From Qipengyuania oceanensis (GTDB taxonomy: Bacteria > Pseudomonadota > Alphaproteobacteria > Sphingomonadales > Sphingomonadaceae), in NCBI RefSeq assembly GCF_009827535.1, contig NZ_WTYN01000001.1, forward strand, positions 682,001 through 746,000: DNA of 64,000 nt. Reading direction: 5' to 3'. The notes beneath the pieces were generated by a model, which saw only the letters and a program-made list of their open reading frames with translations, was not told where the DNA came from and ran no database searches. This document shows, piece by piece, positions 31,166 through 35,080 of this stretch (positions are counted from its first letter, which is position 1; every line of letters begins with the position of its first letter). The translations under genes and the position numbers were made by a program.

Positions 31166-31348
31166 CTACCGCTTCTTCTGGATTTCGATCTTGTTCTTCT
31201 TGGCGAAGTCCTTGGTCGACTCCTCGCTGCGGCCGATGGCCTTGGCGATTTCCTTCAGCCCCTTGCCCTTGCCTGCGAGCATGCGCAGCTGGCCCGCCTC
31301 GTCGGCTTTCCACGGCTGCTTGTGCCGTTCGAAAAACTCCTTCGCCAT
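31166..31348 (-). CDS. Small helix-turn-helix-like protein coupled to topA
   Basis: Unrecognised basic protein of 60 residues. The segment PWKADEAGQLRMLAGKGKGL followed by KEIAKAIGRSEESTKDFAKK has the pattern of a SANT or GcrA-like helix-turn-helix: Trp near the start, a Leu-rich first helix, an IA-x-x-IGRS turn and a Lys-rich third helix. That makes DNA binding plausible but not proven. Its ATG overlaps the topA stop by one base (TGATG), so it is made from the topA mRNA. It converges on era. Confidence 0.72.
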   Translation of the reverse strand: MAKEFFERHKQPWKADEAGQLRMLAGKGKGLKEIAKAIGRSEESTKDFAKKNKIEIQKKR

Positions 31349-33915
31349 CAGTCCGCCTTCGCTGCCTTCTTGGCCGGAGCCTTCTTCTTGGGCGCGGCCT
31401 TCTTCTTGGCAGGAGCCTTCTTCTTCGCCTTCTTCTTGGCGGGCCCCTTGGCCGCGCGGGCATCGATCAGCTCGATCGCCTGCGCATCAGTGAGGTCTTC
31501 GGGCTTCTGATCCTTGGGAATGGTCGCATTCGTCGTGCCGTCGGTGACGTAGGGTCCGTAACGACCCGGCATCACCTTCATCTCGGCACCGCTGGTCGGA
31601 TGCTCGCCCAACGTCTTGATCGGTTCGGCCTTGCCGCGCCCTCTGCCCTTGCGATTGGCTGCTTCGGCCAGGATCGTGACTGCAGCATTCATCCCGACAT
31701 CGAACACGTCGCTTGTCGAGCCGAGCTTGCCGTACTTCCCATCATGCCGCAGGTAAGGCCCGTAACGCCCTATCGCCGCTTCGATTTCCTTGCCGGTTTC
31801 GGGATGCGCGCCGACGATGCGCGGCAGGCTGAGCAACTTGATCGCCCACTCCAGGTCGAAGTCCGGCAGGTCCTTCGGGATGCTCGCCCGCTTCTTCGCC
31901 CCGTCAACTTCCATTTCGACATAGGGGCCGAACCGGCCGGTCTTTCGCTCGACCTGTGCGCCGGTCTCCGGGTCGGTGCCCATGACCCCGTCCTCGCCCG
32001 CGCCGTCCTCTTCTCCGCCCGGCTGGGCAAAGCGGCGGGTGTACTTGCATTCAGGGTAGTTCACGCAGGCGATGAAAGCGCCGTAACGGCCGCCGCGCAG
32101 ATGCAGCTCGCCGCCTGCGCGCCCCTCGTCGCGGCACAGCGGGCAGGCCCGCGGATCGCTCCCGTCGGCGGTCGGCGGGAAGAGATAGTCGGACAGATAC
32201 TCGTCGAGCGCCTCGGTCACTTCCGAGGGCTTCTTGTCCATCACCTCTTCGGTCTTCGGCTTGAAATCGCGCCAGAACTGCTCGAGCAAGGTCTTCCACT
32301 GCTCGTCCCCGGCGGAGACCTCGTCGAGCTCGTCTTCCATCTCGGCGGTGAAATCGTATCCGACGTAGCGGGTGAAGAACCGTTCGAGAAAAGCTGTCAG
32401 CAAGCGGCCCGATTCCTCTGCGAAGAAACGGTTTTTCTCCATCCGGACATAGTTGCGGTCGCGCAGCGTCTGGATGGTCGAGGCATAGGTCGACGGACGT
32501 CCGATGCCCAGTTCCTCCAGCCGCTTGACCAGCGATGCTTCCGAGAAGCGCGGCGGCGGCTGGGTGAAGTGCTGGGTCGCATCGACGCCCGTCTTGGCCG
32601 GCGTATCGCCCTTCTTCATCGCGGGCAGCAGGCCGTCATCGTCGCCGTCGTCGCCGTCCGACTTGTCGTCGAACCCTTCCTGGTAGACCGCGAGGAAACC
32701 GGCGAACTTCACCACCTGGCCGGTTGCGCGAAGCTCGTGCCGGCCGGTCGGGTCGCGCATCGTCACGGTCGTCCGCTCGAGACTGGCAGCGGCCATCTGA
32801 CTCGCCATGGCGCGCTTGTAGATGAGGTCGTAGAGCTTGCCTTCGTCGCCCGATCCGGCCCGGTCGCGCATGAAGTTCGTCGGGCGGATCGCCTCGTGCG
32901 CTTCCTGCGTGTTCTTGGCCTTGGTCTTGTACATCCGCGGCTTTTCCGGGAGGTAATGCCCGTCGTAGCGCTCGGTGATTGCCTTGCGCGCAGCCGAAAT
33001 CGCACTGCCGTCCATGCTCACCCCGTCGGTCCGCATGTAGGTGATCGCGCCCGCCTCGTAGAGCGATTGCGCACAGCGCATCGTGTGGCTGGCCGAAAAG
33101 CCGAGCTTGCGCGCGGCTTCCTGCTGCAGGGTCGAGGTAGTGAACGGCGGGGCCGGATTGCGCTTCAGTGGCCGGGTCTCGATGTCCTCGACCGTGAAGC
33201 GGCCTTCCTCAACGGCCTTCCGAGCCGCCTTGGCAGTGCCTTCCTCGCCGATCGACAGGCGATCGATCTTCTCGCCGTCGTAGCGTACCAGCCGCGCATC
33301 GAACGCGGTACCGTCATGCTCCATGTGCGCGACGACCGACCAGTATTCCTGCGGGACGAAAGCCTCGATCTCGCGCTCGCGATCGACGATCAGCCGCAGG
33401 GCCACCGACTGGACGCGACCGGCGCTCTTGGCCCCCGGCAGGCGGCGCCACAGCACCGGCGAGAGCGTGAAGCCGTAGAGGTAATCGAGCGCGCGGCGCG
33501 CGAGATAGGCGTCGATCAGTGGCTGGTCGAGGTCACGCGGGCTCTTCATCGCCTCGGTCACCGCGTTCTTGGTGATCGCGTTGAAGGTCACGCGATCGAC
33601 CTTGTCGGGCAGCGCCTTGCGCTTTTTCAGCAGTTCGCGGACGTGCCAGGAAATGGCCTCGCCTTCGCGGTCGGGGTCGGTCGCGAGTACCAGCCGGTCC
33701 GCTTTCTTTGCCGCATCGGCGATTTCCTTGAATCGGCTCTGCTTGTCGCGGTAGAGTTCCCAGTCCATCGCGAAGTCCTCGTCCGGGCGGACGCTGCCGT
33801 CCTTGGGCGGCAGGTCGCGGACGTGGCCATAGGATGCGAGGACCTTGAAGTCCTTGCCCAGGTACTGCTCGATGGTTTTCGCCTTAGCCGGCGATTCTAC
33901 AATAACTAGTTGCAT
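31348..33915 (-). CDS. topA: DNA topoisomerase I
   Basis: Type IA topoisomerase that relaxes negative supercoils, 855 residues. The Toprim domain starts MQLVIVESPAKAKTIEQYLG and has DPDREGEAISWH near residue 110; the catalytic Tyr293 is in ITYMRTDGVSM. One classical zinc-finger motif is visible (CPLCRDEGRAGGELHL to NYPECKY), followed by several degenerate topo C-terminal repeats with GRYGPY, and a Lys/Ala/Pro-rich tail of about 35 residues. It is the key enzyme for supercoil balance; its promoter region carries an unusual Z-DNA-prone tract (33935-33960). Confidence 0.97.
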   Translation of the reverse strand: MQLVIVESPAKAKTIEQYLGKDFKVLASYGHVRDLPPKDGSVRPDEDFAMDWELYRDKQSRFKEIADAAKKADRLVLATDPDREGEAISWHVRELLKKRKALPDKVDRVTFNAITKNAVTEAMKSPRDLDQPLIDAYLARRALDYLYGFTLSPVLWRRLPGAKSAGRVQSVALRLIVDREREIEAFVPQEYWSVVAHMEHDGTAFDARLVRYDGEKIDRLSIGEEGTAKAARKAVEEGRFTVEDIETRPLKRNPAPPFTTSTLQQEAARKLGFSASHTMRCAQSLYEAGAITYMRTDGVSMDGSAISAARKAITERYDGHYLPEKPRMYKTKAKNTQEAHEAIRPTNFMRDRAGSGDEGKLYDLIYKRAMASQMAAASLERTTVTMRDPTGRHELRATGQVVKFAGFLAVYQEGFDDKSDGDDGDDDGLLPAMKKGDTPAKTGVDATQHFTQPPPRFSEASLVKRLEELGIGRPSTYASTIQTLRDRNYVRMEKNRFFAEESGRLLTAFLERFFTRYVGYDFTAEMEDELDEVSAGDEQWKTLLEQFWRDFKPKTEEVMDKKPSEVTEALDEYLSDYLFPPTADGSDPRACPLCRDEGRAGGELHLRGGRYGAFIACVNYPECKYTRRFAQPGGEEDGAGEDGVMGTDPETGAQVERKTGRFGPYVEMEVDGAKKRASIPKDLPDFDLEWAIKLLSLPRIVGAHPETGKEIEAAIGRYGPYLRHDGKYGKLGSTSDVFDVGMNAAVTILAEAANRKGRGRGKAEPIKTLGEHPTSGAEMKVMPGRYGPYVTDGTTNATIPKDQKPEDLTDAQAIELIDARAAKGPAKKKAKKKAPAKKKAAPKKKAPAKKAAKAD

Positions 33916-33934
33916 TGCGGTTTTTGGAAGCCCT

Positions 33935-33960
33935 TACGCGTATACGTGTACGTACACGCG
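33935..33960. promoter_or_regulatory. 26-base alternating pyrimidine-purine tract at the topA promoter
   Basis: Bases 33935-33960 alternate pyrimidine and purine without a break and include a perfect 14-base palindrome (33945-33958). Such tracts adopt Z-DNA under negative supercoiling. It lies 20-45 bases upstream of the topA start, between the candidate -10 region and the start codon. A supercoil-sensing role is inferred. Confidence 0.6.
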
Positions 33961-33961
33961 A

Positions 33962-33990
33962 GAGTGGGGTGTGAGATTCGGAGGTGTCAA
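33962..33990 (-). promoter_or_regulatory. Candidate topA promoter
   Basis: A perfect TTGACA -35 box (33990-33985, minus strand) is followed after 17 bases by CCACTC (33967-33962), a poor -10 box. If used, transcription would start near 33955, inside the alternating tract. Confidence 0.4.
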
Positions 33991-34078: not shown

Positions 34079-35080
34079 CTAACGCTGGGCGGCCATCTGC
34101 GCGACGATCCTTTCGTTCGCATTGCCTACGAGGGCCACGGCGCCAGCCTGGTACTGCTCGCCGTTGGCAGTGAACTCGAACTTGCGGGTCTTGCCGAACA
34201 TCGGCAGGCCGATACCGGCGGCAGCGGCCAGTCCACCAGCGACATTGGCTGCCGACTGGGTTGCCTTCGCGGCACCGGTACTGGCATCGGCGACCTCGAT
34301 GAACTCGCCGTCGACCGACATCGGCGACGTGATGACGACCTGGTTCTGCTTGCCGTTGGCGCCGATCACGGTCACCTTCGACAGGTCCGGCACGACGGAT
34401 AGGTTGGCGTTCACTTTCAGACTGCCGCCGAAACTGAAGGCACCCGGACGCTTCTGGTCCGAGAAGTCGATCAGGTAGATCACATCGACCGCGGGCACGC
34501 CGCTTTCCTTCGCGTATGTGCCGACCGCCAAGGCGCTGCGCGTGGCCTTCATGTTGCTGCCGATGGAACCGAAACCCCCGCCCAGCGAAACGTCGCCCGG
34601 CAGGATCACCTGGATCGGCAGGGCGCTCGGAGCGTAGAAAACCGCTTTGCCTTTGCTCTTCTTCTCGAGCTGGATCGATTCCTCGCTCGGACCGCGATCT
34701 GACCCGGCCTTGGCCATGGTTTCGCTAGCGAAGACCGTCGCAGGCGCGATGACCGTCATGCCGGCAGCGGCGAGCCTGGCGGTGAAATCGGCATAGGCCG
34801 CATCGGTGATTGCCTGCATCATCTCCGGCGTCACGCCGACCAGCTTGCTTTGCGCCTTGGTCGTCCCCCCGAATGCGCCCATCAGGCCGCCGGTCTTCTT
34901 GGTCTGGTCGATCGATTCGAAGATGAAGCCGACGTTGAAGGCCACGACGGCGACCTGCCCGGCGCCCTGTAGCGCGCCCTTGTCCTTGACCTCGAATTCC
35001 TTGGCATCCTTGGCAACCACTTCGGCCGCCGGAAAAGAAATCGCCAGGGCAATGCCCATGGCCAGCGCAAATTTACGCAT
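34079..35080 (-). CDS. Secreted protein of unknown function between dprA and topA
   Basis: Unrecognised protein of 333 residues. MRKFALAMGIALAISFPAAE is a signal peptide with cleavage near residue 23 (VVA-KD), and a G-rich site lies just upstream of this ATG; 44 upstream in-frame residues are spacer. The mature part is soluble, rich in Ala, Gly, Lys and Val, with a Gly-rich stretch DVSLGGGFGSIGSNM and a short hydrophobic segment VAGGLAAAAGIGLPMFG near residue 290. It sits in the otherwise standard order plsY-dprA-topA. Confidence 0.75.
   Translation of the reverse strand: MRKFALAMGIALAISFPAAEVVAKDAKEFEVKDKGALQGAGQVAVVAFNVGFIFESIDQTKKTGGLMGAFGGTTKAQSKLVGVTPEMMQAITDAAYADFTARLAAAGMTVIAPATVFASETMAKAGSDRGPSEESIQLEKKSKGKAVFYAPSALPIQVILPGDVSLGGGFGSIGSNMKATRSALAVGTYAKESGVPAVDVIYLIDFSDQKRPGAFSFGGSLKVNANLSVVPDLSKVTVIGANGKQNQVVITSPMSVDGEFIEVADASTGAAKATQSAANVAGGLAAAAGIGLPMFGKTRKFEFTANGEQYQAGAVALVGNANERIVAQMAAQR

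Follow-up and report, generated by a model that had tools for sequence, protein, structure and literature searches.

The window, i.e. the whole 64-kb stretch (64,000 nucleotides) of Qipengyuania oceanensis DNA analysed here, carries on its minus strand topA, the gene for DNA topoisomerase I, preceded by a core promoter in which pyrimidines and purines alternate without interruption across the predicted transcription start. In the direction of transcription the features are:

33985..33990, minus strand: -35 hexamer TTGACA (TTGACG in 91% of the relatives, with a C before the hexamer in 94%)
33967..33984, minus strand: 18-bp spacer, free to drift in sequence but of constant length in 190 of 197 anchored modules
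33961..33966, minus strand: -10 element CACTCT (family consensus CAyyyT; A at 0.96, last T at 0.98)
33935..33960, minus strand: alternating (pyrimidine-purine)13 tract, CGCGTGTACGTACACGTATACGCGTA in topA direction, comprising the discriminator, the predicted start and the first 19 transcribed bases
33953..33953, minus strand: predicted transcription start, the A of a conserved TA step, 8 nt past the -10 element
33931..33934, minus strand: purine run AGGG closing the tract (AAGG or GAGA in relatives)
31348..33915, minus strand: topA, DNA topoisomerase I, 855 aa (NCBIfam topA_bact, 714 bits; Pfam Topoisom_bac and Toprim)

Read on the minus strand, the order is CTTGACACCTCCGAATCTCACACCCCACTCT-CGCGTGTACGTACACGTATACGCGTA-AGGGCTTCCAAAAACCGCA-ATG, the ATG being the topA start codon. 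The strict alternation over 26 bases at 33935-33960 was already recorded in the initial annotation and is confirmed here, as is the TTGACA box that it noted near the tract, on the minus strand at 33985-33990. Its location of the tract at the topA promoter also holds, but not its placement upstream of that promoter: the tract follows the -10 element, precedes the start codon and covers the predicted start. It forms that half of the topA core promoter which contains the start site, the start site itself being predicted, and is no separate upstream element.

The second-longest alternating run in the 64-kb window measures 13 bases, and when the window was simulated 60 times with a third-order Markov model the longest run never exceeded 19. 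Throughout the 2.87-Mb genome, where counts were derived from pattern searches, the topA tract is the sole alternating run of at least 22 bases; pyrimidine-first runs of 18 occur at only two other places, and one of these two long tracts falls within an open reading frame. With independent steps, about 0.1 run of at least 26 bases would be expected per genome, at any position. Elsewhere in the window long alternating runs seem mildly avoided, since they stop at 13 and the simulations usually reach 14-17.

Upstream regions of topA were taken from genomes of the same GTDB family as the window, plus named Erythrobacteraceae and Novosphingobium records. The resulting sample comprises 210 distinct regions from Sphingomonadaceae including Erythrobacteraceae (about 30 lower-scoring genomes of the family were left out). 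An unbroken pyrimidine-purine tract of at least 10 bases is present in 202 of the 210. Tract length ranges from 10 to 28 bases and is nearly always at least 14 (10 bases in one region, 12 in two, 14 in 43, 16 in 26, 18 in 27, 20 in 57, 22 in six, 26 in 38 and 28 in two). The peaks at 14, 20 and 26, with no tract of 24, follow a 6-bp step that may reflect common ancestry or a helical-phase preference. Two further regions (L219, L243) have the module with one transversion within the tract, and the remaining six are without the entire promoter module. The search among relatives proposed in the initial annotation accordingly finds the alternation kept family-wide, sequence and length not; the refuting outcome named there, a tract absent from close relatives, did not occur. 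In a few genera of the family (topA upstream regions L205, L266, L214, L261, L225, L221) the whole -35/-10/tract module has been lost and the sequence upstream of topA is unrelated, which makes them natural controls for any function. At the 3' end of the tracts of L031 and L076 there seems to be a partial duplication (CACGTATAGGCACACCTAAGGG and CACGTAGGCACACGTAAGG, respectively), as if tract and purine tail had been copied jointly.

Outside this range the tract is missing, namely in 27 genomes of other alphaproteobacterial families, in 10 others of the order and in 4 deep-branching members of the family, where the longest runs measure 4-11 bases. Because these outgroup and deep-branching regions are without the tract, the element evidently arose inside the family, followed by a few losses. 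Its absence outside the family, in the deep branches and in the secondary losses also means that it is dispensable for topA homeostasis.

Across the 202 modules the core promoter consensus is gCTTGACG-N18-CAyyyT, followed by the tract. The sequence CCAyyyT stands directly before the tract and a purine run, usually AAGG, directly after it; this closing run is retained even in relatives with a much longer leader. Counted from the first base of TTGAC, the tract begins at a distance of 30 nt in 181 of the 202 modules and of 28 or 29 nt in the rest. Its most conserved step is TA at offsets 6-7 (T 0.80, A 0.85), and the predicted start falls at offsets 6-8, the tract spanning roughly -7 to +20. It would accordingly cover the discriminator (CGCGCG by consensus), the predicted start and between 7 and 21 bases at the beginning of the transcript. 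In the middle of the tract C/T and A/G are each near 50:50.

For Zymomonas mobilis the sigma-A consensus is TTGnnn and TAnnnn with a spacing of about 17 bp (PMC7566282). Judged against it, TTGACG is strong, CAyyyT retains the A of the second position but not the T of the first, and the spacer is 18 bp long. The topA promoter shows a geometry of the supercoiling-sensitive type, a spacer other than 17 bp (18 bp in 190 of 197 modules) combined with a G+C-rich discriminator. A heat-shock (sigma32) promoter of E. coli topA was reportedly described by Lesley et al. in 1990 (listed in PMC4770202); it shares with the present promoter the CTTGA at -35 and a run of C with an A in the -10 region. Such a sigma32 promoter, suspected from CTTGAC...CCCCA, is nevertheless less likely here, since the distance from A to T in the -10 element (CAyyyT) fits sigma70 better than the sigma32 pattern CCCCATnT.

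When the module pattern was searched in 30 and 40 related genomes, it was found at topA and otherwise as scattered matches, only slightly more numerous than those of a control with the backwards pattern. The module is essentially unique to topA in each genome, and a shared regulon was rejected because matches elsewhere barely exceed that control. No comparable tract lies within 150 bp before the profile match of gyrB or of a gyrB paralogue, the 150 bp being counted from the match and not from the gene start. A dprA-like C-terminus ends just upstream of the module in at least 60 modules, and dprA directly precedes topA in many relatives. In others, the window and locus L014 among them, dprA and topA are separated by something else, and it is topA that the module accompanies; in the window the intervening gene (34079-35080, minus strand) encodes a secreted-looking protein with no Pfam or NCBIfam match.

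Substitutions were counted by parsimony within tract-length classes on a tree built from 99 topA coding sequences. The tract shows 153 transitions and 0 transversions on this tree, as compared with 179 and 332 in the adjacent spacer of the same promoters, and tract length changed at least 25 times. In 96 disjoint nearest pairs the corresponding counts are 163 and 0 for the tract vs 248 and 467 for the spacer. Both counts used tracts preselected as unbroken, omitting the two broken ones. A count without that bias was obtained from an alignment of 197 modules anchored on TTGAC and CAnnnT, which is blind to alternation. Here, alternation in the first 14 positions after the -10 element is broken in only 5 of the 197 modules (6 of 2758 cells); 7 further anchored modules are one base out of register, their tract beginning at the T of the -10 element. 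The first 7 tract bases, predicted to be untranscribed, alternate as strictly as the rest. Since the spacer is saturated with changes and the tract is without transversions, the purine/pyrimidine class of the tract must be under strong purifying selection. By these sequence comparisons, strict alternation itself is what is selected, with little else in the middle of the tract, which suggests selection for a structural property of the DNA rather than for a particular sequence. Superimposed on the alternation, the sense strand has 182 CA steps vs 93 TG steps, and the self-complementary steps CG and TA are over-represented.

Origin by chance or as a mutational by-product, e.g. dinucleotide slippage, would fit the even-numbered length changes. 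It could by no means account for a tract that recurs in 202 of 210 upstream regions at a constant distance from the promoter and has collected no transversion beside a saturated spacer; the 0 tract transversions on the 99-locus tree refute it in practice, and its probability is negligible.

The initial annotation had also stressed a perfect 14-base palindrome within the tract. This is present (CGTGTACGTACACG, 33945-33958), but incidental: the longest palindromes of the tracts average 7.66 bases vs 7.68 and 7.48 in two null sets, no longer than in alternation-preserving shuffles. A palindrome or cruciform was rejected as the conserved feature for this reason, and a dyad operator is likewise not apparent. 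The same result weighs on recognition of the tract, partly by shape, by a DNA-binding protein (a repressor, a nucleoid protein, gyrase or TopA itself). Such a protein would explain why the element, constant at its ends and variable in between, behaves like a single unit, and why the words CGTA, GTAC and ACGT and the tract end CGTRAGG are enriched. It would have to tolerate, however, near-random base identity (C/T and A/G) in the middle, a twofold variation in length and a dyad symmetry not above shuffles, and to do so for a module that is not clearly carried by any other gene. We consider this distinctly unlikely.

At the RNA level, the 5' leader might either adopt or avoid a structure that controls topA translation or stability. 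In favour of this are the 3' part of the tract, which by prediction is transcribed and is followed directly by a purine-rich, Shine-Dalgarno-like run, and the preponderance of CA over TG among the sense-strand steps. The folding energy of the leader differs from that of alternation-preserving shuffles by 0.01 +- 0.10 kcal/mol, though, and no Rfam family matches the leader at gathering score; an RNA hairpin or riboswitch was rejected on these grounds. Moreover, the 7 bases predicted to be untranscribed are held to the same alternation. Any such RNA-level function is very improbable.

The strand asymmetry would also fit a reading of the alternation by RNA polymerase itself, to which successive pyrimidine(-1)/purine(+1) steps would present, like a ladder, many positions for starting or pausing, so that start choice, early pausing or promoter escape is tuned. 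The extent of the tract from about -7 to +20 and the peak of conservation at the TA step of the predicted start would be as expected, and the known pause signature purine(-10)/pyrimidine(-1)/purine(+1) has the parity of an alternating ladder. Start choice requires only a few bases near +1, however, and pausing a single site, so that 14-28 unbroken bases would be superfluous. We regard a ladder read by the polymerase as rather unlikely.

Whether the tract is suited to form Z-DNA, as the initial annotation had proposed, was evaluated with a two-state B-Z model, comprising two junctions of 5 kcal/mol each and assumed energies per dinucleotide (CG 0.7, CA/TG 1.3 and TA 2.5 kcal). The predicted flip lies at |sigma| 0.046-0.047, nearly equal for tract lengths from 14 to 28, and at 0.0475 for the window's own tract. 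The alternating run is unbroken and, by this prediction (|sigma| about 0.046), long enough to flip under physiological supercoiling. Beyond alternation itself no preference for Z-DNA was found, the tracts requiring 0.0468 vs 0.0461 for shuffled alternating tracts; they are slightly less Z-prone than the shuffles because the self-complementary steps CG and TA are over-represented. Within length classes the spread of the B-Z threshold is half that of column shuffles. The spread of duplex stability is likewise halved, and it is therefore overall stability or composition that is held constant, rather than anything specific to Z-DNA. At strongly negative supercoiling Z-DNA is possible, and the tract sequence, in terms of the model, is not optimised for it.

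In a strict Z-DNA switch, supercoiling at an alarm level would flip the tract, and a B-Z junction at the -10 element would open, block or buffer the topA promoter. Its attraction is that strict alternation, the classic requirement of Z-DNA, is the one conserved feature, and that the predicted threshold is almost constant across lengths, with half the spread of column shuffles. The reduced spread is not specific to Z-DNA, as duplex stability is constrained equally, and the tracts are slightly less Z-prone than shuffles. In addition, TA, the worst step for Z-DNA, is over-represented, (CG)7 alone would flip earlier (at a predicted 0.039), the tract is strand-asymmetric with CA over TG, and Z-DNA covering the start site would more naturally block topA than stimulate it. 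The Z-DNA claim is consequently not supported by our data in its strict form, and we consider the switch unlikely; it would be a specific version of the broader torsional explanation preferred here.

According to that explanation, to which we assign a probability of roughly 0.45, the tract would make topA initiation depend on negative torsion, with negative feedback through TopA. Most simply, we infer, the alternating steps over the start site are a torsionally soft segment that would gather under-twisting where the polymerase must open the DNA and leave. Under-twisting would concentrate in these soft steps over the discriminator and the start site, either as partial untwisting of B-DNA or as a Z-like transition, and the weak -10 element, the 18-bp spacer and the G+C-rich discriminator would act jointly with the tract. 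Supercoiling that is too negative would then ease open-complex formation or promoter escape, relaxed DNA would hamper them, and the higher topA output under excess negative supercoiling would close the feedback via TopA. Promoters with long spacers have been found to be activated at highly negative superhelicity (PMC9303308), those with G+C-rich discriminators lose activity on relaxation (PMC8422995), and mycobacterial topA promoters are supercoiling-sensitive through their spacing (PMC4770202). The link to supercoiling, proposed in the initial annotation as a homeostatic loop tuning topA, becomes more plausible because a fixed 18-bp spacer and a G+C-rich discriminator are both reported to favour negative supercoiling (PMC9303308, PMC8422995); by analogy, the two are predicted to point in the direction that a homeostatic loop needs. 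Taken as a whole, the interpretation given in the initial annotation is partly supported.

Three observations fit the torsional explanation poorly. The spacer of 18 bp and the G+C-rich discriminator would already confer sensitivity, leaving alternation up to 20 bases into the transcript unexplained. The preponderance of CA steps over TG steps on the sense strand (182 to 93) is not predicted by a strand-symmetric property of the duplex and hints at a contribution of polymerase or RNA. Finally, the element is missing outside the family, in its deep branches and in a few secondary losses. That a promoter element consisting of alternation alone serves as a cis-acting supercoiling sensor, possibly via Z-DNA, and in this way controls the cell's own DNA-relaxing enzyme, is a tentative and somewhat doubtful proposal.

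It has been difficult to settle whether non-B DNA plays a selected regulatory role in bacteria, since conservation has seldom been demonstrated for candidate tracts. The approximately 200 genomes compared here represent a natural mutagenesis, in which letters and length vary but alternation persists at a single fixed position of a gene for supercoiling control; a selected role of non-B DNA therefore becomes directly testable. If the torsional explanation is true, models of supercoiling-sensitive promoters would extend beyond the start site.

Feedback on topA, sensitive core promoters and alternating DNA are all known already. In the open-licence full texts searched, on Z-DNA in connection with topA, alternating tracts, Sphingomonas, Zymomonas or alphaproteobacteria, the element is not reported, nor is any promoter element in which alternation is conserved and sequence is not. 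Z-DNA-forming sequences near eukaryotic promoters (e.g. PMC5066173) likewise place an alternating purine-pyrimidine tract at the start of transcribed genes; the present tract, in contrast, is bacterial, not optimised for Z-DNA, and bound to one gene and one promoter geometry. Closer to the case at hand, the topA promoter of E. coli is supercoiling-sensitive. The same is true of Mycobacterium topoI (PMC4770202) and Streptomyces coelicolor topA (PMC5055605). All three share with the promoter described here a topA core promoter of non-optimal geometry and a proposed homeostatic feedback. The mycobacterial spacers are short (14-16 bp, PMC4770202) where the present one has 18 bp. A conserved alternating tract was not found in the work consulted on these promoters, and Z-DNA goes unmentioned in the mycobacterial paper (PMC4770202). 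Promoters with G+C-rich discriminators (PMC8422995) resemble the topA promoter in their stretch between -10 and +1, here CGCGCG, which is predicted to need negative supercoiling for opening. They depend on G+C content, whereas in the topA promoter it is the order of purines and pyrimidines that is conserved, and this well past +1.
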